44,624 nt of DNA from Bacteroidota bacterium (GTDB lineage: Bacteria; Bacteroidota; Bacteroidia; Sphingobacteriales; Sphingobacteriaceae), in NCBI GenBank assembly GCA_013286985.1, contig JABDEQ010000013.1, positions 109 through 44,732 of the forward strand. Reading direction: 5' to 3'. Made by a program: the position numbers and the translations under genes. Shown piece after piece: positions 8,049 through 44,624 of this stretch; positions within the stretch are counted from its first letter, which is position 1; every line of letters starts with the position of its first letter. The notes below the pieces were generated by a model that was not told the DNA's origin, searched no databases, and saw nothing but the letters and a program-made list of their open reading frames with translations.

Positions 8049-8870
8049 ATGGCTAAGGCAAAAGTTAACGGAATTGAACTTAATTACAAGGTTACCGGCA
8101 ATGGAGTACCTTTGGTTTTAGTACATGGACATCCATTTGACCACACCATGTGGTACCCACAGGTTGTTGACTTTTCTGATAGTTATCAGGTAATTACGCC
8201 CGATTTGAGGGGGTACGGCAATAGTACACTCCCACTTTCGGCAGATACCAAATTTGAGGACTATGCTACAGATGTTTTGCAATTGCTGGATTATTTGAAT
8301 GTTGAACGTTTTCATCTTGCCGGGTTATCCATGGGCGGGCAAATCATTATGGAAATATTCAGGCAGGCTCCGGCACGGATAAAGTCATTAATATTTGCTG
8401 ATACATTTGCCGGCTTGGATACCCCGGAGATAAAACAGGGCCGTTATGATACGGCCAATCGTTTGGAGAAAGAAGGAATGGACGCCTATTCGGACGAGGT
8501 GATTTACAAAATGATTCGCCCGGAACATGTTAGCTCAATGCCCGAAGTTACTGAACATGTTATTAAAATGATGAAAGGCACCTCGCCAGTCGGCGCAGCG
8601 ACCGCTTTAAGGGCAAGAGCCGAAAGAATTGATTATCTGGCTAAAGTGTTACCGCAAATTAATGTACCAACCCTGGTAATTGTTGGCCGCGAAGATGAAT
8701 TTACCCCTGTTGCTAAAGCCGAAGAACTGAAAGAAAATCTTCAAAATTGCAAATTGGTAATTATAGAAGATGCCGGACACATGCCAAATTTGGAACATCC
8801 AGATCATTTTAATGAGGCCGTGACCTATTTCCTGGAAAGTATCAGTAATCCACCCGGAACTTCTCTTTAA
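8049..8870 (+). CDS. Alpha/beta-fold hydrolase
   Basis: 273 aa with a complete catalytic triad: nucleophile S94 in GLSMGG, D216 in VGREDEF and H244 in DAGHMPNLEHP. The oxyanion-hole motif HGHPFDHTMW lies at 26-35. There is no signal peptide, so cytoplasmic. The sequence looks like the broad family containing 3-oxoadipate enol-lactonase (PcaD) and esterases, but no pca genes are nearby, so I would not assign a substrate. It ends 51 bp from the convergent eda gene; I see no strong terminator in that gap. Confidence 0.85.
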   Translation: MAKAKVNGIELNYKVTGNGVPLVLVHGHPFDHTMWYPQVVDFSDSYQVITPDLRGYGNSTLPLSADTKFEDYATDVLQLLDYLNVERFHLAGLSMGGQIIMEIFRQAPARIKSLIFADTFAGLDTPEIKQGRYDTANRLEKEGMDAYSDEVIYKMIRPEHVSSMPEVTEHVIKMMKGTSPVGAATALRARAERIDYLAKVLPQINVPTLVIVGREDEFTPVAKAEELKENLQNCKLVIIEDAGHMPNLEHPDHFNEAVTYFLESISNPPGTSL

Positions 8871-9581: not shown

Positions 9582-10615
9582 TTTATTGCATTTTCTATTT
9601 CCGCTACAGTGCTGGTAGTCGAATCGCCATTAATAAATAACTTCTCAAATGCAGCAGCAGTAGCAAATTCAAGCGTTTGCTGTGGGGCAAGGTTTTTATA
9701 AAATCCGTAAATAAGGCCGGCCATAAAACAATCGCCGCTGCCTACTTTATCTGTTACCTTGTCGGTTTCGTACTGATTGGAAGTATAGAATTTCCCGTTT
9801 GTAAATAGTGATGTATAATAAGTTATATTGCTGGTAGCATCAAACCGGAAAGTATTGGCAACAGCCTCACATTTAGGATAATGTTCAATAATTGCTTCCG
9901 ATGTTTTTAGCGCCTCCTTTAAATAAATACTTTTTTGCCCGCTCTCGTGAATATCCGGAATCACCGGTATACCCAGCATCGCTTCGGCCGCCCAAACATT
10001 ACCCATCACCAGGTTACAATATTTTACCAAACCCGGCATAATATCAATAGGCGATTTCCCGTATTGCCAGAGCTTTGCCCGGTAATTCATATCCACTGAT
10101 ATGGTAATGCCTTTTGCAGATGCCGCTTCAAGGGCTTCTTTACACACATCAGCAACGTTTTGACTTATTGCCGGACAAATTGCGCTGAAGTGAAACCAGC
10201 TCACCCCATCTAATATCAAATCCCAGTCGATAACTCCTGGTTTTAGTGTCGAATAGGAAGAGTTGGCCCGATCATATACCAGCGCGTTATGTTTTAAATC
10301 CTGCCCGCGGGTTAAATAATATAAGCCTATCCTATTACCTGTTTTAATGGTGGATGATGTGTCAATTCCCTTTTTTTGTACAAATTTACTAATTTGTTCT
10401 GCCATACCGTTATCAGGCAACGCAGTAAGATATTTAGAAGACAATCCCCAAAGTGACAAGGCAGTAGCCACATTTAGCTCGGCGCCGCCAACAAAAAATG
10501 GTAACTGATTTTCATTCAGCCATTCACCATCCGCATCGGGGCAAATACGCAGCAGCAATTCGCCAAATGAAAGTATTTTACCAGTGTAAGCTTTATTGAT
10601 GACGTTTAAACTCAT
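9578..10615 (-). CDS. kdgK: 2-dehydro-3-deoxygluconokinase (PfkB family)
   Basis: 345 aa. It phosphorylates 2-keto-3-deoxygluconate with ATP to make KDPG for the next enzyme. PfkB features are visible: the N-terminal FGELLLRI and VGGAELNVATALSLWG sugar-binding region (42-57) and the C-terminal GSGDCFMAG motif with catalytic base D295. It overlaps uxaC upstream and eda downstream by 4 bases each, which shows tight translational coupling. The length is typical of Bacteroidota KdgK. Confidence 0.92.
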   Translation of the reverse strand: MSLNVINKAYTGKILSFGELLLRICPDADGEWLNENQLPFFVGGAELNVATALSLWGLSSKYLTALPDNGMAEQISKFVQKKGIDTSSTIKTGNRIGLYYLTRGQDLKHNALVYDRANSSYSTLKPGVIDWDLILDGVSWFHFSAICPAISQNVADVCKEALEAASAKGITISVDMNYRAKLWQYGKSPIDIMPGLVKYCNLVMGNVWAAEAMLGIPVIPDIHESGQKSIYLKEALKTSEAIIEHYPKCEAVANTFRFDATSNITYYTSLFTNGKFYTSNQYETDKVTDKVGSGDCFMAGLIYGFYKNLAPQQTLEFATAAAFEKLFINGDSTTSTVAEIENAIK

Positions 10616-28944: not shown

Positions 28945-29838
28945 TTATGCAGAACGGGTAGCTTTTTCAATGCTATCCCACATTTCGGAGGGTATCATTT
29001 CCAATGCGTTAAACTGGCCTGCACCTTGTAACCATTCGCCGCCATCAATAGTAACTACCTCTCCGTTGATATAACCAGAGAAGCCTGATACCAGGAATGC
29101 CGCCAGATTAGCTAATTCCTGATGCTCGCCCATACGTTTAAGTGGAACCCTGTTTTTGAAATCGAACTTTTTACCCATATCGCCGGGCAGCAGACGTTCC
29201 CAGGCCCCTTTGGTTGGGAATGGCCCCGGAGCAATTGCATTACACCTGATTCCATGCCGGCCCCATTCAGCTGCCAGCGACCGGGTTAAAGCCAGCACAC
29301 CGCCTTTGGCGCAAGCAGACGGAACCACATAAGCCGACCCGGTGAACGCATAAGTAGTAACTATATTGAGTATATTACCTTGTAGCTTTTCATTTATCCA
29401 GTATTTGCCCAAAGCCAGCGAGCAATTTACCGAGCCTTTTAAAACAATATCAATTATCGCCGAAAAAGCATTGGCAGAGAGACGTTCCGTTGGCGAAATA
29501 AAGTTACCTGCAGCATTATTTACCAGTACATCGACAGAGCCGAAAGTGCTAATGGCCTGGCCAAGCATATTTTCAACCTCTTCATACTCCCTTACGTCAC
29601 AAGCAACCGCTAATACCTTACCACCTGTTTCAGTCTCCATTTCTGCGGCTGTTTGTTTCAGTACATCCAGCTTTCTGCTGGTAATTACCAAATTGGCTCC
29701 TAATTTTAAGAAATAAGTGCCCATTGCCCTGCCCAAACCTGTACCACCGCCGGTAATAACTATGGTTTTGCCTTTTAAAGCATCCTCTTTTAACATTCCT
29801 TCGGTAATTGCCTGGTTTTGCGGGCTGTTATCGCTCAT
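28945..29838 (-). CDS. 2,4-dienoyl-CoA reductase, mitochondrial SDR type
   Basis: 297 aa SDR with cofactor motif TGGGTGLG (29-36) and NNAAGNF (107-113). The classical YxxxK is absent: the region reads Y163 ... S174 xxx K178. That Y-11-S-4-K spacing is the active site of animal DECR1 (Y199, S210, K214), and the following AEWGRHGIRCNAIAPGPF and ELANLAAFLVS segments also match DECR1, as does the C-terminal INGEVVTIDGGEWL. The enzyme reduces 2,4-dienoyl-CoA with NADPH to 3-enoyl-CoA, needed to degrade polyunsaturated chains. It is the last gene of the cluster, 7 bp after the isomerase that uses its product. E. coli FadH is an unrelated flavoprotein. Confidence 0.85.
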   Translation of the reverse strand: MSDNSPQNQAITEGMLKEDALKGKTIVITGGGTGLGRAMGTYFLKLGANLVITSRKLDVLKQTAAEMETETGGKVLAVACDVREYEEVENMLGQAISTFGSVDVLVNNAAGNFISPTERLSANAFSAIIDIVLKGSVNCSLALGKYWINEKLQGNILNIVTTYAFTGSAYVVPSACAKGGVLALTRSLAAEWGRHGIRCNAIAPGPFPTKGAWERLLPGDMGKKFDFKNRVPLKRMGEHQELANLAAFLVSGFSGYINGEVVTIDGGEWLQGAGQFNALEMIPSEMWDSIEKATRSA

Positions 29839-29845
29839 AACAAGT

Positions 29846-30622
29846 TTATTTAGCAGTACTTTTTGATTTTAAATTCTCAACCATCATTTGCAAGCCTTTG
29901 CGGGTTGCGGGCGCCCACCACTGGCTAAGCATTTTATTTAAAGTGTCAGATTGATCACTATTCAGTTTAGTTATCAATTCTTTACGCAGGTTTAATTTAC
30001 TTTGGCTCCAGGTGGCTGCGCTAAACTGCATGTAGGTTCTTATCTTTCTTTCGGCGTTGCTTAACAAACTATCAGCTGCACTTAGCTCGTCTATTAATCC
30101 GGCATCAAGAGCTTCACTACCGTTTAAAAGTTTGCCTTCCATTAAATACTGATAAGCTTTGCGTTTGCCAAGCCAAAAGGCATATAAATCAAAAATACCA
30201 TCGGGCACAATAATACCCACCGGAATTTCATTTAAACCGATTACAAACTTACCCTCGGCCATTACTCTATAGTCGCAGCAAATAGCCATAACACATCCAC
30301 CTGCCGGGCTATGGCCGCTTATAGCAGCAACCATTGGTTTTTTGAAAGATGCCATTACTCTTTGCAGCTCCAAAAAATCAACCCAAAACTCCCTGCTTTG
30401 CGCCTCGTCATATTCATAAGCCTCTATCAGGTCAATACCCGAAGAAAAAAAGCCTTCTTTACCGGTCAGCAATAACCCGCCCACATTGGTATCGTCGGCA
30501 TCTAAATTGCGGATGCAGCTGGTTAATTCCTTAACCATTTGATGATTGATAGGATTTGAACGCCCTCTGTCGAGCGCTATCATAGCCAGCCTGTCCCTAA
30601 TTTTTAATTGAAATGTTTCCAT
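29846..30622 (-). CDS. Delta3,delta2-enoyl-CoA isomerase (ECI1-like crotonase)
   Basis: 258 aa crotonase-fold protein. The oxyanion-hole region SSGIDL (60-65) and PAGGC (106-110) are present. Hydratases need two glutamates; here the first is replaced (V111 in GGCVMAICCDYR) and only E132 in LNEIPVGI remains. Single-Glu use with PAGGC, CDYRVMA and GLNE...GIIVP is the pattern of mitochondrial ECI1, which shifts cis/trans-3-enoyl-CoA to trans-2-enoyl-CoA. Generic annotation would call it enoyl-CoA hydratase, which I think is wrong. It lies between acyl-CoA ligase and dienoyl-CoA reductase genes, a context that fits unsaturated fatty-acid breakdown. Confidence 0.8.
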   Translation of the reverse strand: METFQLKIRDRLAMIALDRGRSNPINHQMVKELTSCIRNLDADDTNVGGLLLTGKEGFFSSGIDLIEAYEYDEAQSREFWVDFLELQRVMASFKKPMVAAISGHSPAGGCVMAICCDYRVMAEGKFVIGLNEIPVGIIVPDGIFDLYAFWLGKRKAYQYLMEGKLLNGSEALDAGLIDELSAADSLLSNAERKIRTYMQFSAATWSQSKLNLRKELITKLNSDQSDTLNKMLSQWWAPATRKGLQMMVENLKSKSTAK

Positions 30623-30632
30623 TGTTCTCTTA

Positions 30633-32447
30633 TTAGTTTACCAGGGCCGGATTTTCGCTTACTTCGCCTGCATACATTTTATCAATCTCTGCTTTATACT
30701 TTTCTGTAATGATCTTTCGCTTCATTTTCCCCGTTGGGGTGAGCTCGCCGGTATCAACCGACCACTCATCTGCCAGCAAGGTAATTTTCTTTACCTGCTC
30801 CACATGGTTAAATTCGGGATTATAGGTATCTATAATAGATTGATACATATCAATTACCCTTTTATCTTTTAAAAGTTCCCTGTGCGAACTAAACTCAATA
30901 TCATTCTTTTTGCACCATGGTTTCAGGTTGGTATATGATGGCACTATAAGCGCTGCTGCAAATTTCCGTTCCGAGCCAACCACCATCATCTGTTCAATGA
31001 AATAGTTTTCTTTCATCTTATTTTCAATCGGCAGTGGAGCCACATATTTACCGCCCGAAGTTTTAAATATTTCTTTTTTACGATCTGTTATTTTCAAGAA
31101 ATTATCTTCATCCAATACACCGATATCTCCGGTGTGGAACCATCCGCCTTCTAATACCTCGGCGGTTAATTCGGGGTTTTTATAGTAGCCAGGCATAATA
31201 TTAGGACCTTTACACAATATTTCGCCGTCTTCGGCTATCTTAACCTGTACGCCGCTTAGCAATGGCCCAACGGTGCCAAATCTCCTACCGCTTTCTGCAT
31301 AATGATTAACTGCAATAACCGGCGAGGTTTCTGTTAAGCCATAACCTTCTATCACCACCATATCTGCCGCAGTAAATATCTTTTCGAGTCTTATAGGAGT
31401 TGATGAGCTTCCCACTACAATAGCTTTTATATTCCCCCCCACGGCAGCGCGCCATTTACTAAATACCAGTTTATCGGCTATGGCCAATTTAAGTTTATAT
31501 CCCGCACTCTGATTGCCAATTTCGTACTGATCAGCCACGCTCACTGCCCAAAAAAATATCTTCCTTTTTATACCTGTCAGTTTCTGGCCTTCAACCATTA
31601 TTCGTTCAAACACTTTCTCCAGCACCCTCGGAACCGCGGTAAATAGGTAAGGTTTAACCTCGCGCATGTTAGGGCCTATAGTATCCATATTCTCCGCGTA
31701 AGAAACCGAAAAGCCGTAAAAAAGATAAATATAGGTTACCATTTTCTCGAAAATATGATTCAATGGCAAAAAGCTTAGTGAACGCTTCTCTTTTATGGGT
31801 ATTTGCGCCAATATATCGCCGGATGCTGTAACATTACTTAAAATATTTTTATGGGTAAGCATTACCCCTTTTGGCCTGCCTGTAGTACCCGATGTATATA
31901 TTATTGTAGTAACATCATCCTCTTTAACTTTGCTGCTAATTTCACCAATCCTTTGTTCGTAACCTGGTTTTAATGGTTTAAGCAATTCGGTCCAGTTAGG
32001 ACAATTATCCAGCTCATCAAAAGAAAAAATAGTTCTTAACGATGGTACATTGGCATGTATCTGTTTGGCTTTTTCAAATAACTCTTTGGTACTTACAAAA
32101 AGGTATTTTACATCTGCTTCAATTAATATCTGTTCAATTTCTTTAGTATTGGTATTGGGGTATAGAGGCACCAATACGGCTCCGGTAAGCTGTACAGCCA
32201 AATCGGCCACTACCCACTCAGGCCGACCGGCACTTATTAAACCTATTTTATCACGCCCTTCAACCGTACCGTCACCTGTGGAAATACCCAAATCAAGCAG
32301 CGCCTGGGTTAGTTGATAAACCAGTCCATGCACTTCTGTTGTACTGTAAGCTTTCCAGCTTCCATTTACTTTTGCGTTTAACAAGTCAGCCTGGGGTTCT
32401 TTCGCCTGAACTGCCATGCAATCAAACAATCTTGTTGCTTTTTCCAT
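30633..32447 (-). CDS. fadD: Long-chain fatty-acid-CoA ligase
   Basis: 604 aa AMP-forming synthetase. P-loop YTSGTTGRPKG (184-194), A5 motif GYGLTETSP (368-376), TGD (439-441) and the hinge DRKKEIFKTSGGKYVAP (455-471). The GGKYVAP form and overall length match the FAA/FadD15-type long-chain ligases rather than acetyl-CoA synthetase. It activates fatty acids to acyl-CoA using ATP at the inner face of the membrane. The isomerase gene follows after 10 bp, the thiolase gene lies 39 bp upstream. Confidence 0.92.
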   Translation of the reverse strand: MEKATRLFDCMAVQAKEPQADLLNAKVNGSWKAYSTTEVHGLVYQLTQALLDLGISTGDGTVEGRDKIGLISAGRPEWVVADLAVQLTGAVLVPLYPNTNTKEIEQILIEADVKYLFVSTKELFEKAKQIHANVPSLRTIFSFDELDNCPNWTELLKPLKPGYEQRIGEISSKVKEDDVTTIIYTSGTTGRPKGVMLTHKNILSNVTASGDILAQIPIKEKRSLSFLPLNHIFEKMVTYIYLFYGFSVSYAENMDTIGPNMREVKPYLFTAVPRVLEKVFERIMVEGQKLTGIKRKIFFWAVSVADQYEIGNQSAGYKLKLAIADKLVFSKWRAAVGGNIKAIVVGSSSTPIRLEKIFTAADMVVIEGYGLTETSPVIAVNHYAESGRRFGTVGPLLSGVQVKIAEDGEILCKGPNIMPGYYKNPELTAEVLEGGWFHTGDIGVLDEDNFLKITDRKKEIFKTSGGKYVAPLPIENKMKENYFIEQMMVVGSERKFAAALIVPSYTNLKPWCKKNDIEFSSHRELLKDKRVIDMYQSIIDTYNPEFNHVEQVKKITLLADEWSVDTGELTPTGKMKRKIITEKYKAEIDKMYAGEVSENPALVN

Positions 32448-32486: not shown

Positions 32487-33662
32487 CTATAACAATTCAA
32501 ATATGCCTGCTGCTCCCTGCCCTGTTCCAACACACATGGTAACCATACCATACTTTTTATCACGTCTTTTCAATTCGTTAAACAGCTGTACCGAAAGCTT
32601 TGCCCCCGTACAACCCAGCGGATGCCCTAATGCTATAGCACCTCCGTTTACATTTACAATATCCGGATTTAATTCCAATCCTTTTATAATGGCCAATGAT
32701 TGGGAAGCAAAGGCTTCATTTAATTCAATCAGGTCAATATCTTGTTGTTTCATGCCTGCCAGTTTCAACACTTTTGGAATAGCTACCAGCGGGCCTATCC
32801 CCATAATACGTGGAGGAACGCCCGCAACAGCATAATTTACCATGCGTGCAATGGGTGTAAGGTTATTTTGTTTCATAAACTTTTCGCTCACCACCATTAC
32901 AAATGCGGCACCATCACTGGTTTGTGATGAATTGCCTGCTGTAACAACGCCTTCTGCATTAAATACCGGCTTCAATTTGGCTAAAGCATCCAATGACGTA
33001 TCGGCACGAGGGCCTTCATCTGTATCCACTTTAAATTCTCTTTTTTTCTTTTTTCCGCTTTCATCAACATAAGTTTCTACAATGTTTACCGGAACAATCT
33101 CATCTTTAAACCTACCTTCTTTAATAGCGGCTATAGCTTTTTGATGAGAGTTATAGGCAAACTGATCCTGTTCTTCCCTGCTCACTTTATATTCGCTGGC
33201 AACAGCTTCGGCAGTAAGTCCCATCCCCCAGTAATAATCGGGGTGCGCCAAAGCAACGTCTGCATTTGGTACAACCCGCCAGCCGCCCATTGGCAGCAGG
33301 CTCATGCTCTCAACACCACCAGCTATAATACAATCAGAAATACCGCTATGTATTTTTGCTGCCGCGATAGCAATAGTTTCCAGGCCCGACGCACAGTAAC
33401 GGTTTACAGTCATCCCCGGAACTTTATCAGTATCCAAAGCAATTAATGATATTAAACGGGCAACATTTAAACCTTGTTCGGCTTCGGGAGTTGCGTTACC
33501 AACAATTACATCATCAATCTGCTCCTTGTCTACATTAGGAACAGAAGCTACCAAATGTTTAATAACATCGGCAGCAAGCGTATCAGGTCGTGTAAACCTT
33601 AATCCTCCTCTTGTTGCTTTTCCAACAGCGCTCCGGCTTGCAGCTACTATGTATGCGTTCAT
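32487..33662 (-). CDS. fadA: Acetyl-CoA C-acyltransferase (thiolase)
   Basis: 391 aa. Catalytic C90 in VNRYCASG, H347 in GHPLGCTG and C377 in CVGTGQG are all present. It cleaves 3-ketoacyl-CoA with CoA to acetyl-CoA and the shortened acyl-CoA. The KKKK-rich loop around residue 200 (DESGKKKKREF) is characteristic of Bacteroidota and FadA-type enzymes. It lies between the FadN gene and the ligase gene; together with FadN it completes each oxidation cycle. Confidence 0.95.
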   Translation of the reverse strand: MNAYIVAASRSAVGKATRGGLRFTRPDTLAADVIKHLVASVPNVDKEQIDDVIVGNATPEAEQGLNVARLISLIALDTDKVPGMTVNRYCASGLETIAIAAAKIHSGISDCIIAGGVESMSLLPMGGWRVVPNADVALAHPDYYWGMGLTAEAVASEYKVSREEQDQFAYNSHQKAIAAIKEGRFKDEIVPVNIVETYVDESGKKKKREFKVDTDEGPRADTSLDALAKLKPVFNAEGVVTAGNSSQTSDGAAFVMVVSEKFMKQNNLTPIARMVNYAVAGVPPRIMGIGPLVAIPKVLKLAGMKQQDIDLIELNEAFASQSLAIIKGLELNPDIVNVNGGAIALGHPLGCTGAKLSVQLFNELKRRDKKYGMVTMCVGTGQGAAGIFELL

Positions 33663-33859: not shown

Positions 33860-36241
33860 TCAATTTCTCAGCACTTTTCCGCCTGTTAAAATGGATTGTA
33901 TCCTTTCCAAAGTTTTCTTTTCCATACACAGGGATACAAAAGCTTCCCGCTCCAACCCCAGCAAATACTCTTCGTTTACAAGAGATGGCTGCGATAAATC
34001 CCCACCCGAGATTACATAAGCCAGTTTTTGAGATATTTTCACATCGTGTTCGCTAATGTAATTACCACTATACATGGTATTGGCACCCACATAACCCAGG
34101 CCAAGTGCCTGTTTACCCAGTACCCTGATGTCGCTTCGCGGTATGGGTTGTACGTAGCCTTCATCAGCAAGTTGTAAACACTGTTGTTTAGCTTCAGCTA
34201 ATAGCCTGTTTTGCGAAACAACTACTACATCGCGGCCCTTTTTCAGATAACCCAATTCAAAAGCCTCATAAGCGGAAGTGGATACCTTTGCCTGTCCAAT
34301 GGTTAAAAACCTGTCGCGGAAATTATTAAGCTCGATATCTCCATCCTGTAATTCGTCGGATAATCTTAAAGCAAACTCTTTTGTACCGCCGCCGCCGGGT
34401 ATTAAGCCGACACCAAATTCAACAAGGCCCATATACAATTCGGCATGGGCAACTACTTTATCGGCATGCAGGCATAACTCACACCCTCCGCCCAAAGCCA
34501 TTTGATGCGGGGCAGCCACCACCGGAATGGAGGAATACCTGATCCGCATCATCGTATTTTGGAAAGCTTTGATAACCATATTCAGCTCGTCAAACTCCTG
34601 TTCAACGGCCATCATAAATATCATTCCTACGTTGGCGCCAGCGCTAAAGTTGGCTCCTTCGTTTGATATTACCAATCCTTTATAACTTTTCTCGGCCAGC
34701 GCTATGGCTTTATTAATGCCTTCTATCACATCGCCACCTATGGTATTCATTTTGGTGTGAAACTCCAGGTTAAGTATACCATCGCCAATATCAGTAATGG
34801 TAGTACCGCTGTTTTTCCATATGGTATGTGTTGGGCGGATATTATCCAGCAATATAAAGCTCTCCGTTCCCGGGATTATCTTGTAGGTTTTAGATGGAAT
34901 ATCATAGAACAAACGTTTGCCACCCTCAACCTTGTAGAAACTTTTTGCACCGGAAGCAAGCATATCATAAACCCATTGCGCCGGTTTATTGTCGGCAGCC
35001 TCCATTAACTTCAAGGTATCTTCGGCACCAAGAGCATCCCATTTTTCAAAAGGGCCCATTTCCCAGCCAAAACCGGCGCTGGTAGCCGCATCTATCTTGT
35101 ATAATTCATCAGCAATTTCTGGTATGCGATTACTTGCATAGGCAAAAAGCTCGTAAAACGTAGCACGATAAAAATCACCCGCCTTATCTTTCGCTGCAAC
35201 GAGTATTTTAAGCCTGTCCTTTAAATTATCAACCGTTTTGGTAGTTTCAAGTGATGGAAATTTCACCTTTTGCGATGGCTTATATTCCAAAGTTTTTAAA
35301 TCAAGCGCAAAAAACTGGTTTACGCCATCTACCTTTTCCTTTTTATAAAAGCCCTGGTTGGTTTTGCTACCTAACCAGTTGTTTTTTGCCATCCCGGTAA
35401 CAAAATCAGGGATTTTAAATATTTCCCTTGCTTCGTCATTCGGTGCGTTTTCATAAAGACCATTGGCAACGTGGATCATGGTATCCAAACCTACCACATC
35501 GCTTGTACGAAAAGTAGCCGATTTTGGGTGACCGATAACCGGTCCCGTAAGTTTATCAACCTCCTCTACCGTCATCCCGGTTTTACTCACGTAGTTCAGC
35601 ACGCTCATTATGCTGAACACACCTACCCTGTTACCGATAAATGCCGGTGTATCTTTGGCTAACACCGTAGTTTTGCCTAGAAATTTTTCGCCAAACTCCA
35701 TCAGGAAATTGGTTACCTCGGACAAAGTATCTTTTGTTGGGATGACCTCGAGTAGTTTTAAATATCGTGGCGGATTAAAGAAATGACTTCCGCAGAAATG
35801 TTTCTTAAAATCATCGCTCCTGCCCTCAGCCATTAAATGAATTGGGATACCCGAAGTATTTGAGGTGATCAGCGTGCCTGCCTTACGGAATTTCTCCACA
35901 CTTTCGAATACTTTTTGTTTAATGTCGAGGCGTTCAACCACCACTTCTATTACCCAATCGCACTCGGCTATTTTGGGCATATCGTCGTCAAAATTACCCG
36001 TTGTTATGCGCTTAGCGAATGACTTGAGATAAATTGGCGATGGATTTGATTTCAAGGCAAAATCCAAGGCATCATTCACTATTTTGTTTCTGACTTTTTT
36101 ATCGTTTTCAGGTGCTTCTTTGGGTACAATATCCAATAGCAATACCTGCACCCCAATGTTTGCAAAATGGCAGGCAATACGGCTGCCCATTACACCTGAA
36201 CCCAGTACAGCTACCTTTTTTATTATTCGTTTGGCATCCAT
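33860..36241 (-). CDS. fadN: FadN-type 3-hydroxyacyl-CoA dehydrogenase / enoyl-CoA hydratase
   Basis: 793 aa bifunctional enzyme. N-terminal dehydrogenase first: NAD motif GSGVMG (14-19), S129, H153 in GSHFFNP, E165 and N204, followed by the C-terminal dehydrogenase domain up to about 440. The crotonase domain comes last (about 480-680), with both hydratase glutamates, E588 in GGGCEL and E608 in GLVEFGVG. This order is the reverse of E. coli FadB and equals Bacillus subtilis FadN (789 aa). It hydrates 2-enoyl-CoA and oxidises the 3-hydroxy product. fadN-fadA adjacency also matches the Bacillus fadNAE operon. Confidence 0.93.
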   Translation of the reverse strand: MDAKRIIKKVAVLGSGVMGSRIACHFANIGVQVLLLDIVPKEAPENDKKVRNKIVNDALDFALKSNPSPIYLKSFAKRITTGNFDDDMPKIAECDWVIEVVVERLDIKQKVFESVEKFRKAGTLITSNTSGIPIHLMAEGRSDDFKKHFCGSHFFNPPRYLKLLEVIPTKDTLSEVTNFLMEFGEKFLGKTTVLAKDTPAFIGNRVGVFSIMSVLNYVSKTGMTVEEVDKLTGPVIGHPKSATFRTSDVVGLDTMIHVANGLYENAPNDEAREIFKIPDFVTGMAKNNWLGSKTNQGFYKKEKVDGVNQFFALDLKTLEYKPSQKVKFPSLETTKTVDNLKDRLKILVAAKDKAGDFYRATFYELFAYASNRIPEIADELYKIDAATSAGFGWEMGPFEKWDALGAEDTLKLMEAADNKPAQWVYDMLASGAKSFYKVEGGKRLFYDIPSKTYKIIPGTESFILLDNIRPTHTIWKNSGTTITDIGDGILNLEFHTKMNTIGGDVIEGINKAIALAEKSYKGLVISNEGANFSAGANVGMIFMMAVEQEFDELNMVIKAFQNTMMRIRYSSIPVVAAPHQMALGGGCELCLHADKVVAHAELYMGLVEFGVGLIPGGGGTKEFALRLSDELQDGDIELNNFRDRFLTIGQAKVSTSAYEAFELGYLKKGRDVVVVSQNRLLAEAKQQCLQLADEGYVQPIPRSDIRVLGKQALGLGYVGANTMYSGNYISEHDVKISQKLAYVISGGDLSQPSLVNEEYLLGLEREAFVSLCMEKKTLERIQSILTGGKVLRN

Positions 36242-36463
36242 GCAAATACGTTATTTTAAATGGTTATAATATTCATTCCGCAAACAGACCTTAAAGTATT
36301 TAATGCCTTGTTGTTTATTCTGCCATCTTTGTAAAAAGCAGTTAGCCCCGAAATGATTTAATAATTGGTATTGGTTTATATTATAGCAAATATCCTTTTA
36401 AGGATGATTATATAAAGGTCCAAATGACGGAAACATTTGTCAATATTTCGGAACTTTGTTTTG

Positions 36464-36748: not shown

Positions 36749-37192
36749 TTATAATTTAGGTGCTTCTTCAACAAAATCGCTGGTTTTATTGGCGCTCATA
36801 AAAAGTTCGCTCACATCTACCGGCAGCAGGCATAACTTGCGTTTCTCCATATCAATCCAGGCGCCATCTACATTAATAATAGCTGCCTTAACCCCATCGC
36901 TCCGATACATTTCGTGTTTTATCGACCAGCGCGAACCATCGACACGGGCCTTTGAAAGCTCGCAAGTGATTTTAATGGTATCATTTAAAATCACTTCGCG
37001 CAGGTAAAAAAGCTCTTCTCTGAACAATACAGGGCCAATTTTCTGTTCAAGCAGTAAAGCTGGTTTTAAACCTAATTGCTGCAGCATATTTAATCTGGCC
37101 TGGGCAGCAAAATCAGCATAAGCTGAATGGCGCAAGTGCTGGTTAGCATCAATTTGCGACCATAAAACCTGTCCTTCGTAATAGACGTTCAT
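36749..37192 (-). CDS. Hot-dog-fold acyl-CoA thioesterase (4HBT)
   Basis: 147 aa single hot-dog domain. The N-terminal VLWSQIDANQHLRHSAYADFAAQARLN carries the D-x3-H-x-N/R/H motif of 4HBT thioesterases (D17 region), though the usual HVNN is HLRH. It would hydrolyse acyl-CoA to free fatty acid and CoA, probably relieving CoA shortage during oxidation. It lies 8 bp after etfA and 18 bp before the ACBP gene, so it is co-transcribed with both. Confidence 0.82.
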   Translation of the reverse strand: MNVYYEGQVLWSQIDANQHLRHSAYADFAAQARLNMLQQLGLKPALLLEQKIGPVLFREELFYLREVILNDTIKITCELSKARVDGSRWSIKHEMYRSDGVKAAIINVDGAWIDMEKRKLCLLPVDVSELFMSANKTSDFVEEAPKL

Positions 37193-37200: not shown

Positions 37201-38178
37201 CTATTTATGAGTTTCTTTGTACTTTTTTACCGCGGCTGTTAATTTGGGTAAAACTTCCATAGCATCACCGACCACGCCGTAATTGGCCGCCTTGAAAAAT
37301 GGAGCTTCCGGATCTTTATTAATTACAACAATAGTTTTTGATCCGTTAACCCCGGCCAAATGTTGAATAGCCCCCGAAATACCTACAGCGATATATAAAT
37401 TAGGCCGAATAGTTCCGCCTGTTTGCCCTACATGTTCGTGGTGCGGACGCCAATGCGAATCGGCAACCGGGCGTGAACAGGCAGTGGCAGCACCCAGTTC
37501 TTTAGCTAAATCTTCAATCAGTCCCCAGTTTTCGGGGCCTTTCATGCCGCGTCCGCCAGAAACAACCAGTTCAGCATCAGCAAGTGATACTTCGCCACTT
37601 ACTTTATTCACCTGTTTTACTTTTACGCCAAAATCTTTTTCATCAAAACTAACATCCAGCTTTTCAACTGTTGCCTTTCCCTCTCCCTTATTTAACTGAA
37701 ATGAGTTTGGCATTAATGTAATTACTTTTACATCACTCAAAATATTTACAAAAGCAAAGGCTTTCCCCGAGAATACAGCCTTTTTTATCACAAACCCTTT
37801 TTCAGTGTCAGGATACGATAATGCGCCTGCTACCAGGCCTGCTTTCAATTTAACCGCAACGCGCGGTGCAACGGCCCTGCCGTTAATATCGTGTAGTGCA
37901 ATAATAATCTTACTGCCTTCTTTTTCGGCGGCATTTATTAAAGCTTTAGCGTAAGCCCGGGCGTGCAATTCATCTAAGCGGGCATCGGCAACATGTAATA
38001 CTTTTTGCGCGCCATATTCACCTAAACTTTCCATTTCCGAATTTTGAGCATTACCCAAAATAACTGCTGTTACAGCGGTACCGCTTTGTTTGGCTATGTG
38101 CGAAGCATATTGAACGGCTTCAAAACTTTTCTTTTTTATAATTCCTTCGGTATGTTCTACCAATACTAATACAGACAT
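37201..38178 (-). CDS. etfA: Electron transfer flavoprotein alpha subunit
   Basis: 325 aa. The C-terminal FAD domain shows GRGMKGPENW, ACSRPVADSHWRPHHEHVGQTGG and YIAVGISGAIQHLAGV, the ETF-alpha signature, then INKDPEAPFF. It carries FAD and passes electrons from acyl-CoA dehydrogenase toward ETF-quinone oxidoreductase, which is not in this window. It pairs with EtfB 25 bp upstream. Confidence 0.95.
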   Translation of the reverse strand: MSVLVLVEHTEGIIKKKSFEAVQYASHIAKQSGTAVTAVILGNAQNSEMESLGEYGAQKVLHVADARLDELHARAYAKALINAAEKEGSKIIIALHDINGRAVAPRVAVKLKAGLVAGALSYPDTEKGFVIKKAVFSGKAFAFVNILSDVKVITLMPNSFQLNKGEGKATVEKLDVSFDEKDFGVKVKQVNKVSGEVSLADAELVVSGGRGMKGPENWGLIEDLAKELGAATACSRPVADSHWRPHHEHVGQTGGTIRPNLYIAVGISGAIQHLAGVNGSKTIVVINKDPEAPFFKAANYGVVGDAMEVLPKLTAAVKKYKETHK

Positions 38179-38203: not shown

Positions 38204-38947
38204 TTAAATAACTTTTGCTTCTGAATGCAGCAGTTCAACCAGCTCATCCATATTATCAGGATCAACCAGTTTAATACCCGCCTTAGCCGGAGGCATTTCG
38301 TAAGATAAAATTGCTGCCACAGCCGTAACCGCCGAAGGCGTAACCACTTTTAACGGACGGGTACGCGCTGCCATAATACCGCGCATATTAGGTATACGGG
38401 CTTCGGCCACACCTTTTTGGCATGCGATCACTACTGGCAAATTACAAGTATCTGTTTCTTCGCCACCCTCAATTTCACGGTTAACGGTAGCTACATTACC
38501 TTCAACCTGAATACCGGTAGCAAAGCCGATGTAATCCATATCGAGCAGTTCAGCAAGCATTACGCCGGTAGTACCGTTATTGTAATCGATAGATTCTTTA
38601 CCGCATAATATCAAATCATAACCTGTAGTTTTTACATATTCGGCAATGTAACTGGCAGTCTCATAGGCATCATTTGGCGCAGCATCTATGCGGATAGCTT
38701 CATCACCGCCCAGCGCCAGGCCTTTTCTGATAATGGGCTCTACGTCAGCTTTTCCTACAGTTATTAAATGCACATCGCTGGCCACGCCTGTTTCTTTTAA
38801 TTCTAAGGCGCGGATCAAAGCATACCATTCATCGTAAGGATTAATTATATAGGTTACACCATCGCCGCTAATGGCTGTGTTGTTATCTTTTAGTATAATT
38901 TTAGTACTGGTGTCGGGCACCTGGCTTATACACACTAATATTTTCAT
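38204..38947 (-). CDS. etfB: Electron transfer flavoprotein beta subunit
   Basis: 247 aa. ETF-beta markers: ISQVPDTSTKI, INPYDEWYALIRALELKE, GKESIDYNNGTTGVMLAELL and the C-terminal MRGIMAARTRPLKVV. It binds AMP and docks to acyl-CoA dehydrogenase. The upstream gap to the dehydrogenase gene is 78 bp and contains a GC hairpin. Confidence 0.95.
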   Translation of the reverse strand: MKILVCISQVPDTSTKIILKDNNTAISGDGVTYIINPYDEWYALIRALELKETGVASDVHLITVGKADVEPIIRKGLALGGDEAIRIDAAPNDAYETASYIAEYVKTTGYDLILCGKESIDYNNGTTGVMLAELLDMDYIGFATGIQVEGNVATVNREIEGGEETDTCNLPVVIACQKGVAEARIPNMRGIMAARTRPLKVVTPSAVTAVAAILSYEMPPAKAGIKLVDPDNMDELVELLHSEAKVI

Positions 38948-39025: not shown

Positions 39026-40822
39026 TTAAAAACAATATTTATTTTCGGCAATTAGTTTAGCGGCAATATTTCTACGGGCCTGCGTAGTATTAAAGTCTTC
39101 GGTTTTGGTAAAGCGCCTTAATCCCATCAGCATCATTCGTAGTTCGTCGCCCTCGGCAAATGAATTTAATGCCTCTTTGCCTGATTTTAAAATGCGTTCG
39201 GCAGCTTCGCTAATATACACCCGCATGATATCCAATTGCTCTTTACAAGCCTCTTCACCTTTTATGCCAACCAGTTTTTCAACCCTTAGCTGTAATGATT
39301 CGCTCACATAAAGTTCAATCAGCATATCCGCCACGTTCATCAACACTTCCTGTTCTTTACCTAATTGGGCCATTAATTTTTGAACCGCCCCACCGGCAAC
39401 CATTAAAATTGCTTTTTTAAACCCGGTTATATATTTTTTCTCTTTAGTGAACAAGCCATCTTCTTCGCTAGCGTTAAAATCAGGAATGCTCATCAATTCA
39501 CCCGCAACTTTTTGCGCAGGGCCCATTAAGTCAAGTTCCCCTTTCATAGCACGCTTCAGCATCATGTCAACCGTTAGCATCCGGTTGATCTCATTGGTTC
39601 CTTCAAAAATCCGGTTGATCCTTGAATCGCGGTAAGCCCTATCCATCGGTGCTTCGGCGCTGAACCCCATACCTCCATAAATCTGCACGCCTTCGTCAAC
39701 AACATAATCCAGTGTTTCGGAAGCATGTACCTTAATAATAGCGGCCTCAATGGCATATTGTTCGGTACCTTTAAGCTTGGCTTTAATTGGATCCATGCCC
39801 CCTTCAATCAGCATATCGGTAGCTTCTTCCATATTCTGGCTGGCGCGATATATCGCAGCCTCCGAAGCATAGGTACGGATAGCCTGTTGAGCTAATTTAT
39901 AACGGATAGCACCATATTTGGAAATAGGTCTACCAAATTGCTCACGTTCATTTGCATATTTTACAGCTAAAGAAATAACATCCTTACTCGCCCCTACCGT
40001 GCCACCACCTAATTTAATACGGCCCAGATTTAAAATATTTACCGCTATCTTGAATCCGTTTTGACGTTCGGAAAGCAAATTTTCAACTGGTACTTTACAA
40101 TCATTAAAAAATACCTGGCGGGTTGAACTTCCCTTGATGCCCATTTTATGTTCTTCGGTATTCAATGAAAGTCCTTCAAAATCCTTTTCAACAATAAAGG
40201 CACTCAGGTTTTCATCGTTATCTATCTTGGCAAAAACAGTAAATATATCCGCAAACCCCGCGTTGGTGATCCACATTTTTTGACCAGTGATCAGATAATG
40301 TTTGCCATCTTCAGATAGTTTTGCCCGCGCCTTACCGGAATTTGCATCTGATCCGGCTCCCGGTTCGGTAAGACAGTACGCGCCTTTCCACTCGCCGCTT
40401 GCCAGTTTTGGAATATATTTTTGCTTTTGAGCATCATTACCATAATACAGAATAGGCAACGTACCTATCCCGGTATGAGCCGAAAAAGCCACAGAAAACG
40501 AGTGACCTGCACCCAATTTTTCGGTAACCAGCATTGACGTTTTAAAATCCTTACCAAAACCACCATACTCTTCCGGCACCGAAATACCTAATAAGCCAAG
40601 GTTCCCTGCTTCTTCCATTAAATGAGCCATCAGTCCTTCTTCCTGCTCGTCAATACGATTTAAGTTAGGCGTAACGTGTTGGGCTAAAAAATTTGTACAT
40701 GTTTCAGCTATCATCAACTGTTCTTCATTCCATTCTTCCGGAATGAAAATACTTTCAGCAGCTGTTTCCCTGATCAGAAACTCGCCCCCCTTTATAGCTT
40801 TTATAGATTCTGTGGTATTCAT
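39026..40822 (-). CDS. fadE: Acyl-CoA dehydrogenase, FadE/VLCAD type
   Basis: 598 aa, about 200 longer than short- and medium-chain enzymes because of a C-terminal helical extension like that of VLCAD and Bacillus FadE (594 aa). Motifs: AYCLTEPGAGSDA (148-160), WITNAG for FAD, IYGGMGFSAEAPMDRAYRD and catalytic E407 in FEGTNEINR. It introduces the trans-2 double bond and gives electrons to EtfAB encoded next. It heads the leftward fatty-acid operon, with a promoter and an AraC-type operator upstream and a leader of about 150 bases. Confidence 0.94.
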   Translation of the reverse strand: MNTTESIKAIKGGEFLIRETAAESIFIPEEWNEEQLMIAETCTNFLAQHVTPNLNRIDEQEEGLMAHLMEEAGNLGLLGISVPEEYGGFGKDFKTSMLVTEKLGAGHSFSVAFSAHTGIGTLPILYYGNDAQKQKYIPKLASGEWKGAYCLTEPGAGSDANSGKARAKLSEDGKHYLITGQKMWITNAGFADIFTVFAKIDNDENLSAFIVEKDFEGLSLNTEEHKMGIKGSSTRQVFFNDCKVPVENLLSERQNGFKIAVNILNLGRIKLGGGTVGASKDVISLAVKYANEREQFGRPISKYGAIRYKLAQQAIRTYASEAAIYRASQNMEEATDMLIEGGMDPIKAKLKGTEQYAIEAAIIKVHASETLDYVVDEGVQIYGGMGFSAEAPMDRAYRDSRINRIFEGTNEINRMLTVDMMLKRAMKGELDLMGPAQKVAGELMSIPDFNASEEDGLFTKEKKYITGFKKAILMVAGGAVQKLMAQLGKEQEVLMNVADMLIELYVSESLQLRVEKLVGIKGEEACKEQLDIMRVYISEAAERILKSGKEALNSFAEGDELRMMLMGLRRFTKTEDFNTTQARRNIAAKLIAENKYCF

Positions 40823-40974: not shown

Positions 40975-41041
40975 TAAAATTAGATGCCTTTACGAGCCAA
41001 TAAAAGGGCTGCAATGCGGAGATATTAGTCAAAAAGTCGGA
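40975..41041 (-). promoter_or_regulatory. fadE promoter with AraC-type operator (copy 1)
   Basis: The 36-bp element at 41006-41041, read on the minus strand, begins TCCGACTT and includes TCTCCGCATT; its two TCCG words are 21 bp apart, two helical turns, as for AraC-family monomer sites. It is 34/36 identical to the copy at 42045-42080. The -7 element TAATTTTA (40982-40975) follows 23 bases after the operator. The spacing places the regulator just upstream of the polymerase, as for a class II activator. Confidence 0.8.
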
Positions 41042-41049
41042 AATAGAAT

Positions 41050-41937
41050 TTAATTTGCGGAAACAGTACGATAGTCGGACGGCGACATACCTGCATGCTT
41101 TTTAAAATACTTGCCAAATGAGGATTGATCCGGGAAGTGTATAGCCTCAGCTACGCGCGCGATGTTTATATCATGATTTCTTAGCAAAACTTTTGCTTCC
41201 AGCACTACAGCATCATCAATCCATTCACCGGCGGTTCTCCCGGTTACTTCTTTAATGGTTTCTGTCAAATGTTTAGGCGATACAAATAACGAATCGGCAT
41301 AATACTGCACGCTCCGGTGTTCTTTATAATGTTTAAAAACCATTTCCTGAAAAAGCATATTCAACTCCTGCTTGCGGGTCTGTTTGCCTTTTATAATTAA
41401 ATGCTGCTTCTCATAAACCGCCTGAACTTCATATAGTAACGACATCAAAATACTTCTCGAAATCTCAACGTGATATGGATGACCTTCTCTTTCAAGCTTT
41501 TGTTGTATAAGCAGATAGATCTCCAAAATCATTTTGGCATCTGCACTATCCAGGTATATCACCGGGATCGATGTATTCTTAAAATAACCGAATGACTCCA
41601 AAAAATGACTGTTAACATTATTTTCTGTTAAAAATGCCTTACTAAAAACTATAAAACGGCATAAAAAGTCGTCGCTGCTATTGTAAATTCTTAAAACGTG
41701 GAAAGGAGTTGCCAATAGCATAGCATCGGGCCGGGCCTCATAAACCTGCAAATTCACCTCCACCTGTGCGGTGCCACGGGTGCATATGCCAACAATATAA
41801 CCATCTGAACGGTAAGGGTATTCACTTAAGCTTAATAATTGTTTTTCATCAGCTACAAAAAAATCAGCCCCTGCGAGTTTATCGGCATACAGATAAGCAA
41901 ATTTCGAAAGGCTTAATTGTCCTATTTTTCTATTCAT
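41050..41937 (-). CDS. AraC-family transcription regulator
   Basis: 295 aa. N-terminal cupin-like sensing domain (GICTRGTAQVEVNLQVYEARPDAML, about 45-75) and C-terminal double helix-turn-helix: SVQYYADSLFVSPKHLTETIKEVTGRT (about 204-230) and NIARVAEAIHFPDQSSFGKYFKKHAGMSPSDYR (about 257-290). It is bracketed by two near-identical 36-bp elements, each upstream of a fatty-acid gene (fadE and fadL), so it is the likely regulator of both. The right-hand element lies 108 bp from its own start, so autoregulation is possible. The ligand is probably a fatty acid or acyl-CoA, by inference from targets only. Confidence 0.9.
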   Translation of the reverse strand: MNRKIGQLSLSKFAYLYADKLAGADFFVADEKQLLSLSEYPYRSDGYIVGICTRGTAQVEVNLQVYEARPDAMLLATPFHVLRIYNSSDDFLCRFIVFSKAFLTENNVNSHFLESFGYFKNTSIPVIYLDSADAKMILEIYLLIQQKLEREGHPYHVEISRSILMSLLYEVQAVYEKQHLIIKGKQTRKQELNMLFQEMVFKHYKEHRSVQYYADSLFVSPKHLTETIKEVTGRTAGEWIDDAVVLEAKVLLRNHDINIARVAEAIHFPDQSSFGKYFKKHAGMSPSDYRTVSAN

Positions 41938-42044
41938 AGCATTCCAATATATAATTTTTAACTGGCTTTTTTTGTTTGAATTTTAAAAAAACAGATACAC
42001 CTTGATTTCCTGTAGTTCAAAAATTGTCGCTTCACGAAAGATTA

Positions 42045-42110
42045 TCCGACTTTTTGACTAATATCTCCGCATTATAGCCCTTTTTTTCATTTCAAACCAA
42101 ACTACTTTTA
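42045..42110 (+). promoter_or_regulatory. fadL promoter with AraC-type operator (copy 2)
   Basis: The 36-bp element at 42045-42080 reads TCCGACTT ... TCTCCGCATT on the plus strand, toward fadL, matching copy 1 except for two bases (TTATAG in place of TTGCAG). TACTTTTA (42103-42110) follows after 22 bases, so operator-to-promoter geometry equals that of fadE. Predicted start near 42115, giving a 65-base leader. Confidence 0.8.
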
Positions 42111-42179: not shown

Positions 42180-43403
42180 ATGAGAAAACTATTACTCCTA
42201 CTATGGTTGGCATTGCCAGTATGTGCATTTTCGCAAGGCTTCCAGGTTAATCTTGAAGGCGAAAAGCAAATTGGCATGGGCCATACCGGCACCGGCCTTG
42301 CAACCGATGGTGCTTCAGTATTTTTTAACCCGGGTGCAGTTGCCATGCTTCCTGAAAATTATGTTCAGGCTGGAATTAGCCCATTGGTATTTCAGTCGGT
42401 TTTCAATCCATCTGGTACTGATATTCAATATCACACCGCCAATAAAATTGCTCCGCCGTTTACCTTTTATGGTGTATGGGGCCCAAAAGCATCCTGGTGG
42501 AAATTTGGATTGGGTATTTACACACCTTATGGTGGTTTAACCGATTGGGGGAATAACTGGCAGGGAAAATATGTATTGGAAAGCCTTAATTTAAAAGCCA
42601 TTTATTTTCAACCTACCATCAGTATTAAATTGGCCGACTTTGTAAGCATCGGTGGTGGCTTTGTTTATAACAAAGGCAGCGTTGACCTTACACAAGCCAT
42701 ACCACTTTCAAATAGTGCAGGTCAGGACGGACAAGCCGAATTGAAAGGCACCGGACATGGTTATGGTTGGAATGCGGGTATTTATTTTAAAACAGAAGCT
42801 AACTTTACGGTAGGTATTACCCACCGTAGTGGTGTTTCTACTACTATCAATAACGGCAATGCTATATTCTCTGTCCCGGCTTCGCTCCAAAGTGCGTTCC
42901 CTCAACCCAACACCTTCTCTTCTACTATTCCGCTACCGGCTGTTAACTCGGTGGGTATAGGTTTTTACCCAACGTCAAAATGGACGTTAGCCCTGGATAT
43001 AAATATTACCAGCTGGAGTACTTATAAAACTTTAGAGTTTGATTATAAGACTACTACGCCCGATTTACAAAACTCTGTATCACCCCGCGATTATCAGGAT
43101 GCTTTCACATTCAGAGCCGGTGCACAATACAAGTCATCTCCCAGAACAGCCTGGCGCTTTGGTGGCGGCTTTGCAACTACAGCTGTATTGGATGGTTATG
43201 TTACACCGGAAGCGCCCGATGCTAACAGAATGTATTTTACCGGTGGTTTTGGTTACATGTTAACCAAACATTTTGACCTCGATGCGTCGTTTGAATATGA
43301 GCATTTGTTAAGCCGCACGCAAACTAATATTCAATATCAGTTGTCAGGTACATACGATACAAATGTTTATATACCTGGTATCTCACTTTCTTATCACTGG
43401 TAA
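42180..43403 (+). CDS. fadL: FadL/OmpP1-family outer-membrane fatty-acid channel
   Basis: 407 aa with a signal peptide cleaved after AFS (18/19). The mature start GFQVNLEGEKQIGMGHTGTGLATDGASVFFNPGAVAML holds the NPG motif of the FadL hatch region, and the rest is an amphipathic beta-barrel ending LSYHW, with the terminal aromatic required for outer-membrane insertion. It lets long-chain fatty acids or other hydrophobic compounds cross the outer membrane. It is the first gene of a rightward unit with the GDSL-like lipoprotein, 18 bp downstream. Confidence 0.92.
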   Translation: MRKLLLLLWLALPVCAFSQGFQVNLEGEKQIGMGHTGTGLATDGASVFFNPGAVAMLPENYVQAGISPLVFQSVFNPSGTDIQYHTANKIAPPFTFYGVWGPKASWWKFGLGIYTPYGGLTDWGNNWQGKYVLESLNLKAIYFQPTISIKLADFVSIGGGFVYNKGSVDLTQAIPLSNSAGQDGQAELKGTGHGYGWNAGIYFKTEANFTVGITHRSGVSTTINNGNAIFSVPASLQSAFPQPNTFSSTIPLPAVNSVGIGFYPTSKWTLALDINITSWSTYKTLEFDYKTTTPDLQNSVSPRDYQDAFTFRAGAQYKSSPRTAWRFGGGFATTAVLDGYVTPEAPDANRMYFTGGFGYMLTKHFDLDASFEYEHLLSRTQTNIQYQLSGTYDTNVYIPGISLSYHW

Positions 43404-43421: not shown

Positions 43422-44624
43422 ATGAAATTTCTAAAAAAACATATATATATAATTGCCGGCCTATTTTTCCTTGCAGCCTGCAAACCGGAAGTTAAAACCG
43501 CACCGCTTACACACGGCTCCGCAAATTTTTCTCGATTCATAGCAGTAGGAAACTCATTAACAGCAGGCTATGCTGATGGCGGCCTTTACCTGGAAGGGCA
43601 ACTAAACTCGTATCCTTCCATTATGGCCAACCAAATGCAATCAGTAGGCGGCGGCGCATTTAATCAGCCATTATTTACCGCAGCACAGGCAAATGGTTCC
43701 GGCTATTTGCAGCTAACTGGTTTTAATGCCGATGGCACTCCGATTACTACACCAGTTACTACTGATTTGGCTATAAGAGGAATATTACCCGTTCCCGGTT
43801 TTGGAAACGTAACTTTATATACCAAATATACCGGCGATATTGAAAACTACGGTGTACCCGGAATTAAATTGCTTAATATTACCTACGCTCCTTATGGAGA
43901 TTTAAATGGATATTTTGAACGTTTATTACCTAACGATGCGCCCAATAACACAACAGATTATCTGGATTTTGTAACCGCAAAACCATTTACTTTCTTTTCA
44001 GATTGGCTGGGAAATAATGATGCTCTTTTATATGCTACATCAGGCGGTGCAGGCGATGTATTGACAGACGAAACCACTTTTGCACAATTGTATGCTTTAT
44101 CTATAGGTACTTTAACAGCAAGCGGTGCAAAAGGTGTGGTTGCAACTATTCCTGATGTAACTTCCATACCATATTTCAATACCGTAACCGTTAATGCTAT
44201 ACTTGCGGGCGTACAAAAAGTAAATCCTGCAGTACAGGGTCTTTATATTAATGCATTGGTTTCAGGTACTACCTATGCGCCGAGGCTTGCTACTGCCAGT
44301 GACTTAATTGTTTTAACATTCCCTACAAGTATGATCGGTCAGCCCGTTTCAACACCATATGGCGAATTACCTTACGGCTTAACACCGTACACGCCAATTG
44401 ATAACCAATATGTGTTGGATGCAAATGAAATTGCATTAACGCAAGAGCATGTGCTTTCATATAATAGCACTATCACATCAATTGCCGCATCAAAGGGTTT
44501 GGCTGTATTTGATGCTTATACGTTCTTAAATAATATCAAGCAAAGCGGTTTAGTTATTGATGGTTTAAATTTAAATTCAAATTATATCAGCGGCGGATTA
44601 TTTTCTCTTGATGGCGTACACTTA
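43422..44624 (+). CDS. GDSL-like lipoprotein, SGNH family (3' end outside window)
   Basis: The first 401 codons are visible and the frame stays open at the window edge. Lipoprotein signal peptide with LAAC (Cys20). SGNH blocks: AVGNSLTAGY (S45; the canonical Asp of GDS is Asn), NYGVPG, WLGNND (the N of block III) and DGVH just before the edge. Nucleophile, block-III Asn and the DxxH dyad are kept, so activity as an esterase or lipase is plausible. Bacteroidota often carry this lipoprotein directly after a FadL-type channel, which suggests that it releases or processes lipids for import. Confidence 0.85.
   Translation, partial: MKFLKKHIYIIAGLFFLAACKPEVKTAPLTHGSANFSRFIAVGNSLTAGYADGGLYLEGQLNSYPSIMANQMQSVGGGAFNQPLFTAAQANGSGYLQLTGFNADGTPITTPVTTDLAIRGILPVPGFGNVTLYTKYTGDIENYGVPGIKLLNITYAPYGDLNGYFERLLPNDAPNNTTDYLDFVTAKPFTFFSDWLGNNDALLYATSGGAGDVLTDETTFAQLYALSIGTLTASGAKGVVATIPDVTSIPYFNTVTVNAILAGVQKVNPAVQGLYINALVSGTTYAPRLATASDLIVLTFPTSMIGQPVSTPYGELPYGLTPYTPIDNQYVLDANEIALTQEHVLSYNSTITSIAASKGLAVFDAYTFLNNIKQSGLVIDGLNLNSNYISGGLFSLDGVHL

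Follow-up and report, generated by a model that had tools for sequence, protein, structure and literature searches.

The window, by which we mean the whole 44,624-nucleotide stretch of DNA that was analysed, carries a gene cluster that covers fatty-acid uptake, activation and the full beta-oxidation cycle (Table 1). The minus strand bears fadE-etfB-etfA-thioesterase-ACBP and then fadB-fadA-fadD-enoyl-CoA hydratase-SDR, while the plus strand bears fadL followed by a lipoprotein-like gene; the operons and transcription start sites referred to below are predicted. From its place in the cluster, the SDR is possibly a 2,4-dienoyl-CoA reductase. The presumed fadE operon includes a bacterial acyl-CoA-binding protein, for which the Pfam match scores 106 bits. 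The lipoprotein-like gene, whose sequence runs off the window, has no match in Pfam or NCBIfam and is on the same strand as fadL in all 48 stretches that have fadL.

Table 1. Genes and putative regulatory elements of the cluster, in coordinates of the window.
Feature	Position	Strand	Remarks
Short-chain dehydrogenase (SDR)	28945..29838	-	PF13561
Enoyl-CoA hydratase/isomerase	29846..30622	-	PF00378
fadD, acyl-CoA synthetase	30633..32447	-	PF00501
fadA, thiolase	32487..33662	-	PF00108, PF02803
fadB, 3-hydroxyacyl-CoA dehydrogenase/enoyl-CoA hydratase	33860..36241	-	PF02737, PF00725, PF00378
-7-like box GATATTTG, fadB promoter	36387..36394	-	
CCTTT element, promoter C	36414..36418	-	
Operator C, TCCGAAATATTGACAAATGTTTCCG, facing fadB operon	36428..36452	-	between ACBP gene and fadB
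Acyl-CoA-binding protein (ACBP), 88 aa	36464..36730	-	PF00887
Acyl-CoA thioesterase-like	36749..37192	-	PF13279
etfA, electron transfer flavoprotein	37201..38178	-	PF01012, PF00766
etfB, electron transfer flavoprotein	38204..38947	-	PF01012
fadE, acyl-CoA dehydrogenase	39026..40822	-	NF058590 above cut-off
-7-like box TAATTTTA, fadE promoter	40975..40982	-	
CCTTT element, promoter B	41003..41007	-	
Operator B, 36-mer facing fadE operon	41006..41041	-	core 41017-41041
AraC-family regulator (araC)	41050..41937	-	295 aa; PF12833/PF00165; predicted two-domain AraC fold; proposed to bind operators A, B and C
Operator A, 36-mer facing fadL	42045..42080	+	25-bp core 42045-42069, TCCG-N17-TCCG; TGAC at 42055-42058
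CCTTT element, promoter A	42079..42083	+	14th to 18th base from second TCCG
-7-like box TACTTTTA, fadL promoter	42103..42110	+	
fadL-type outer-membrane transporter (OMPP1/FadL/TodX)	42180..43403	+	PF03349
Lipoprotein-like gene 3' of fadL	43422..44624	+	extends past window end

As the initial annotation had described, araC is flanked by two 36-bp elements in inverse orientation, each pointing away from it, A toward fadL and B toward fadE. They agree at 34 of 36 bases, both contain the reported TCCG direct repeat with a 21-bp period (TCCG-N17-TCCG), and the reported TAnTTTTA sequences are found as TACTTTTA after 22 bp and TAATTTTA after 23 bp. In gene orientation A reads TCCGACTTTTTGACTAATATCTCCGCATTATAGCCC...TACTTTTA before fadL and B reads TCCGACTTTTTGACTAATATCTCCGCATTGCAGCCC...TAATTTTA before fadE; their first 28 bases are identical, for which dinucleotide shuffles of the window give an expectation of 0, and in an inverted-repeat search the match grows to 43 nt at 93%. 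The annotation was right about these two elements and wrong about the total, as the window has a third, overlooked site (C) before fadB, the first base of which is 211 bp from the fadB ATG and which is likewise trailed by CCTTT and a -7-like box at the same distance as in A and B. Three TCCG-N17-TCCG pairs in the 44.6-kb window compare with 0.40 expected, and none of 100 shuffles reaches three. Given site C, all three presumed transcription units of the beta-oxidation cluster bear one operator. An operator directed at araC itself was not found in 52 loci (best 5-8 mismatches), so that autoregulation is unsupported.

In the window, the promoter-specific bases of A and B start at the fifth base past the second TCCG. 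The 17-base spacers of A and B are identical within one genome in 33 of 40 stretches versus 17.7 by shuffling, a figure reached in none of 5000 shuffles, which ignore kinship, while site C has letters of its own. Possible readings of the identical A/B spacers are co-evolution with the protein and very short gene conversion. Inversion of the araC segment via the flanking inverted copies was rejected, as fadE, etfB and fadB share the araC strand in 140 of 140 gene matches.

To follow these sites elsewhere, close AraC homologs were aligned (A1) and the alignment was used for a profile search of the contigs of 84,980 species genomes, which gave 80 loci. Among them, L001-L055 contain an AraC ortholog or part thereof (69-95% identity) and are assigned to Mucilaginibacter, Bacteroidetes, Sphingobacteriaceae, Flavipsychrobacter and Chitinophagaceae, while L056-L080 contain distant AraCs (22-47% identity in the best segment). 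In the window and the 55 ortholog loci (1.03 Mb), the motif TCCGANNTWTTGACNAANNNNTCCG has 101 exact, 32 one-mismatch, 2 two-mismatch and 5 three-mismatch matches, counts that are not independent and overstate the evidence because many of the loci are close relatives; the controls at 0, 1, 2 and 3 mismatches give 0, 0, 0 and 5 matches for the reversed motif and 0, 0, 0 and 1 for the shuffled one. The distant homologs were discarded as site carriers, the 25 loci L056-L080 having no motif matches.

The 135 sites with at most two mismatches are distributed over fadL (44), fadE (39), the fadB unit (44), etfB (6) and the thioesterase gene (1), and the remaining site, in L034, is without a cluster gene on the short side of its contig. 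The check proposed with the initial annotation, whether the element precedes fadE and fadL orthologs in related genomes, thus has a positive outcome. A site at this threshold lies before the divergent fadL in 44 of 45 loci, the exception L051 having a three-mismatch site (36 of 37 if the eight loci whose fadL match starts after residue 3 are omitted), and the 44 fadL sites of the window and the loci lie at a distance of 125-143 bp to the ATG. In 50 of 54 loci a site is present between araC and the cluster gene that comes first after it; L037 and L039 have none, and L024 and L041 have one at three mismatches. Split per locus, the 50 comprise 38 fadE, 6 etfB, 4 fadB and 2 thioesterase cases, where L036 is counted under thioesterase because its fadE match starts at residue 7. 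Where a gene other than fadE is next after araC (etfB in six cases, thioesterase in one, fadB in four), a site precedes it; the four fadB-unit sites directly behind araC, out of 44, are those of L044, L047, L048 and L054.

The fadB unit is preceded by a site in 39 of 44 loci, the gap before fadB being 222-1444 bp where site C is present. Site C is missing from L003, L025 and L036, where fadB starts 115-167 bp past the preceding gene, as if it continued the upstream operon, and also from L004 (315 bp) and L024 (1096 bp), to which this does not apply. In L047 and L048, fadB, fadA, fadE, fadL-like and lipoprotein genes stand in a row behind araC with a single site ahead of the row. The operator thus tracks the transcription unit and not a given gene. 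Of the 44 stretches in which fadB is preceded by a site, 36 have a DUF2147 gene (Pfam: L020) between the two; it is absent there from the window, L001, L002, L039, L044, L047, L048 and L054. This may point to a function of DUF2147 close to fatty-acid metabolism.

In the promoters attached to these sites, 134 in number, CCTT starts at the 14th base counted from the second TCCG in 132 cases, 123 of which read CCTTT. A box of the form nAnnTTT[GA] occupies position 38 or 39 in 133 of 134, while the stricter TAnnTTT is found in 96 of 134 because most fadB promoters read GATATTTG. The position of this -7 box depends on the promoter: it is 38 in 44 of 44 fadL promoters, 39 in 38 of 39 fadE promoters, and 38 in 37 and 39 in 7 of the fadB promoters. 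Information content is 1.66-1.86 bits per column in the core versus 0.23-0.38 bits in the 30 bases upstream. A TAnnTTTG consensus at -12 to -5 is given for Flavobacterium psychrophilum in an excerpt of PMC9723704, and TTTG is given for B. fragilis in an excerpt of PMC7366714 at the place that CCTTT occupies here, about -36 to -32. If the -7 box is taken as -12 to -5, the putative operator spans approximately -70 to -45 and CCTTT approximately -36 to -32; with the start sites predicted in this way, the repeat stops 9 bp before CCTT (~-36) in 132 of 134 promoters. CCTTT is not the ordinary -33 box of these loci, as only one of 102 other intergenic TAnnTTTG boxes (L001-L053, L142-L151) has CCTT at the regulon spacing.

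The protein encoded between A and B has a C-terminal DNA-binding domain with two helix-turn-helix (HTH) motifs (PF12833, 72.4 bits; PF00165, 43.5 bits, both above cut-off), and the A1 profile matches the DNA-binding domain of E. coli AraC (2k9s) with an E value of 2e-10. An N-terminal jelly-roll regulatory/dimerisation domain is also present, and the predicted model has the two-domain AraC fold. The Foldseek list obtained with this model is headed by ToxT and Rns, partly because they are full-length chains, while in a domain-by-domain structure comparison RhaR fits better than either. A Pfam scan of the linked regulator gives an AraC-type HTH alone and no GntR or TetR domain such as those of FadR and PsrA. 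The putative operators fit such a protein, being composed in A, B, C and the loci of two direct-repeat half-sites with a 21-bp period: TGAC-N7-TCCG lies near the promoter, and a second TCCG(A) lies 21 bp further out, the distal half-site consisting of TCCG(A) alone with no TGAC box 11 bp ahead.

The distribution of sites and regulator was also determined in whole genomes, i.e., 251 genomes of the family, 120 of the genus Mucilaginibacter and 294 of the family of Flavipsychrobacter, and genome-wide scans were made in relatives of the window's genome. Matches with at most one mismatch are confined to the cluster in seven of seven genomes (4.2-8.1 Mb). At up to three mismatches, six genomes have no more matches than the reversed-pattern control, so that weak extra targets are neither detectable nor excludable at that level.

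In the 251 family genomes, the AraC ortholog is found in 21, near full length in 20 and as a fragment in G254, and four further genomes pass the search threshold with AraCs that are only 35-40% identical. The motif with at most one mismatch is found in 25 genomes, 20 with the ortholog and 5 without; 20 of the 21 AraC-positive genomes thus have such a site, and the 21st, G197, has a two-mismatch site before fadE. The five matches in the 230 AraC-negative genomes were rejected as extra targets, as all are inside a large coding ORF whose start resembles an NAD-dependent DNA ligase, presumably ligA. A recurring three-mismatch match, TCCTAC...TTCCT in four genomes, was likewise rejected as the operator of a paralog; it falls within the first part of a gene that begins MSGIIGKKVGMTSIFDE and that we take to encode ribosomal protein L3.

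Among the 120 Mucilaginibacter genomes, 54 pass the threshold, 51 with an ortholog and three with AraCs of 40-42% identity, and all 51 have a site with at most two mismatches. In the genomes with a single match (G197, G254, G579 and G608), the match adjoins araC in all four, each of which was checked. Of the 69 genomes without an ortholog, 23 have a match at up to two mismatches, a threshold at which matches to the control are also frequent, and among the matches listed two have fewer than two mismatches. G571 has one one-mismatch site and no fad gene on the stretch examined; G587 has two exact sites, one ahead of fadE and one ahead of the fadB unit; the fadE site is 164 bp from the contig end, so that araC may simply be absent from the assembly. 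In the family of Flavipsychrobacter, two of 294 genomes have the ortholog, both with a one-mismatch site, and a third match, G415, has an AraC of 40% identity. The motif therefore tracks this AraC through the 251 and 120 genomes, which speaks for the earlier reading of a fatty-acid regulon under its putative control. The scope given to that reading, Bacteroidota, was too wide: this AraC is missing from 230 of the 251 family genomes and present in 2 of the 294, and the regulon is not phylum-wide but confined to Mucilaginibacter, where 51 of the 120 genomes sampled have it, and to a few Chitinophagaceae.

Based on these results, we propose, with considerable confidence, that the AraC-family protein is a local activator of fatty-acid uptake and oxidation genes that binds operators A, B and C. 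In the proposed mechanism, a dimer of the protein encoded between A and B would sit on the 21-bp direct repeat at approximately -70 to -45, directly upstream of CCTTT and the -7 box (mostly nAnnTTTR), and would recruit or activate RNA polymerase as AraC does at araI. Such binding would jointly switch on fadL, fadE-etfB-etfA-thioesterase-ACBP and fadB-fadA-fadD-ech-SDR. The inducing signal would most likely be a fatty acid or an acyl-CoA; binding, activation, ligand and dimer are all inferred.

The site is placed ahead of the promoter elements and does not cover them, which is why activation is preferred over repression. Repressors account for most of the other regulators known for fatty-acid catabolism and for the best-known examples in bacteria. 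The same AraC could bind the same sites and keep the cluster repressed until it senses a fatty acid or acyl-CoA, in the manner of E. coli FadR, which represses fad genes (PMC3460868; PMC9329746). We regard this as unlikely on two indirect grounds. The repeat stops short of the -33 region and is clear of the -7 box, and CCTTT occupies the -33 place, in contrast to the remaining promoters of these loci, as would be expected if the regulon promoters depended on help.

It is also conceivable that the sites belong to another, unlinked regulator and that the araC gene is a bystander or a co-target. With B directly behind araC and A before it, linkage alone could explain why the gene co-occurs with the cluster, but several observations make this quite improbable. 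Among the matches listed, low-mismatch sites accompany this AraC in the 251 and 120 genomes, except for those that fall within coding sequence, for G571 and for G587 with its site at a contig edge, and the pairing holds in Chitinophagaceae-type loci with other gene order (L044, L047, L048 and L054; L134 and L135). Moreover, the half-site spacing is AraC-like, and in L142 an AraC of 40% identity is accompanied by a related site, located before a non-fad operon. That the conserved block is instead the core promoter of an alternative sigma factor and not an activator site appears highly implausible. The block from TCCG to the box is indeed conserved at fixed spacing, but a 21-bp direct repeat so far upstream is not known as a signature of a sigma factor. 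Moreover, a -7 box of the Bacteroidota type (TAnnTTTG in the excerpt of PMC9723704) is at its expected place.

The activator proposed here resembles E. coli AraC at araBAD (araI1-I2) in several respects. Both have the two-domain AraC fold, here predicted, and in both the direct repeat lies next to the promoter, a predicted one in the present case, with the TCC end of the half-site toward the gene. The half-site is in both cases 4 bp-N7-TCC.., TAGC-N7-TCCATA for E. coli AraC (PMC4514859, in part) and TGAC-N7-TCCG here. E. coli AraC, in contrast, controls arabinose genes and not fatty-acid genes, and here the distal half-site is without a clear first box and the promoter belongs to the -33/-7 type of Bacteroidota. 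Local activators of the AraC type that use 21-bp repeats are well known and have also been predicted in Bacteroides, where the predicted sites of AraC-type rhamnose regulators are direct repeats with a 21-bp period and the motifs of AraC-type sugar regulators are termed unique in the portion of PMC3870299 consulted. RhaR and the other AraC-type sugar regulators of Bacteroides serve a different pathway. As is proposed here, one regulator coordinates the breakdown genes in the case of FadR (GntR family) of E. coli, FadR (TetR family) of Bacillus and PsrA (TetR family) of Pseudomonas, which however are of other protein families, have palindromic operators and are mainly repressors. E. coli FadR is treated as a regulator of fatty-acid breakdown in a review (PMC9329746, in part). 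Fatty acids are reported as effectors of the AraC-family proteins Rns (PMC8329261, in part), ToxT and HilD; there they inhibit virulence genes, and the likeness to ToxT and Rns is a fold match to the predicted model.

The literature matches listed include neither an AraC-type fatty-acid regulon in Bacteroidota, in a search outside which most subscription journals fell, nor any regulator of fatty-acid breakdown in Bacteroidota. What the analysis provides is a candidate regulator together with three putative operators at base resolution, a map of the promoters and natural variants from across the genus, through which beta-oxidation control in this group becomes testable by gel shift and reporter assay, and a worked example of how AraC-type sites are placed on the unusual -33/-7 promoters of Bacteroidota. 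Tentatively, a broader reading may be considered, in which beta-oxidation control is lineage-specific, an AraC-type sensor of fatty acid or acyl-CoA activates CCTT(T) promoters, and operator and protein co-evolve. The generic -33 element would then have been replaced in the regulon promoters by the near-invariant CCTT(T). As the operator-promoter syntax recurs in L142, it may represent a readable code for a whole AraC subfamily of Bacteroidota.

In L142, which belongs to another family, the sequence TCCGACTTTTTAACGAATCATTCCT (9813-9837, minus strand) lies immediately behind the 40%-identical AraC and is followed by CCTTTT and AATTTG at unchanged register, and the target is a non-fad operon with a small membrane-protein-like gene first, as judged by eye. 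In L143, tandem 21-bp repeats, ACCGCCTTTT(A/G)CACA... at approximately 8048-8093 on the minus strand, follow a 42%-identical AraC and precede a small gene and an apparent RND efflux operon, roles that were also judged by eye.
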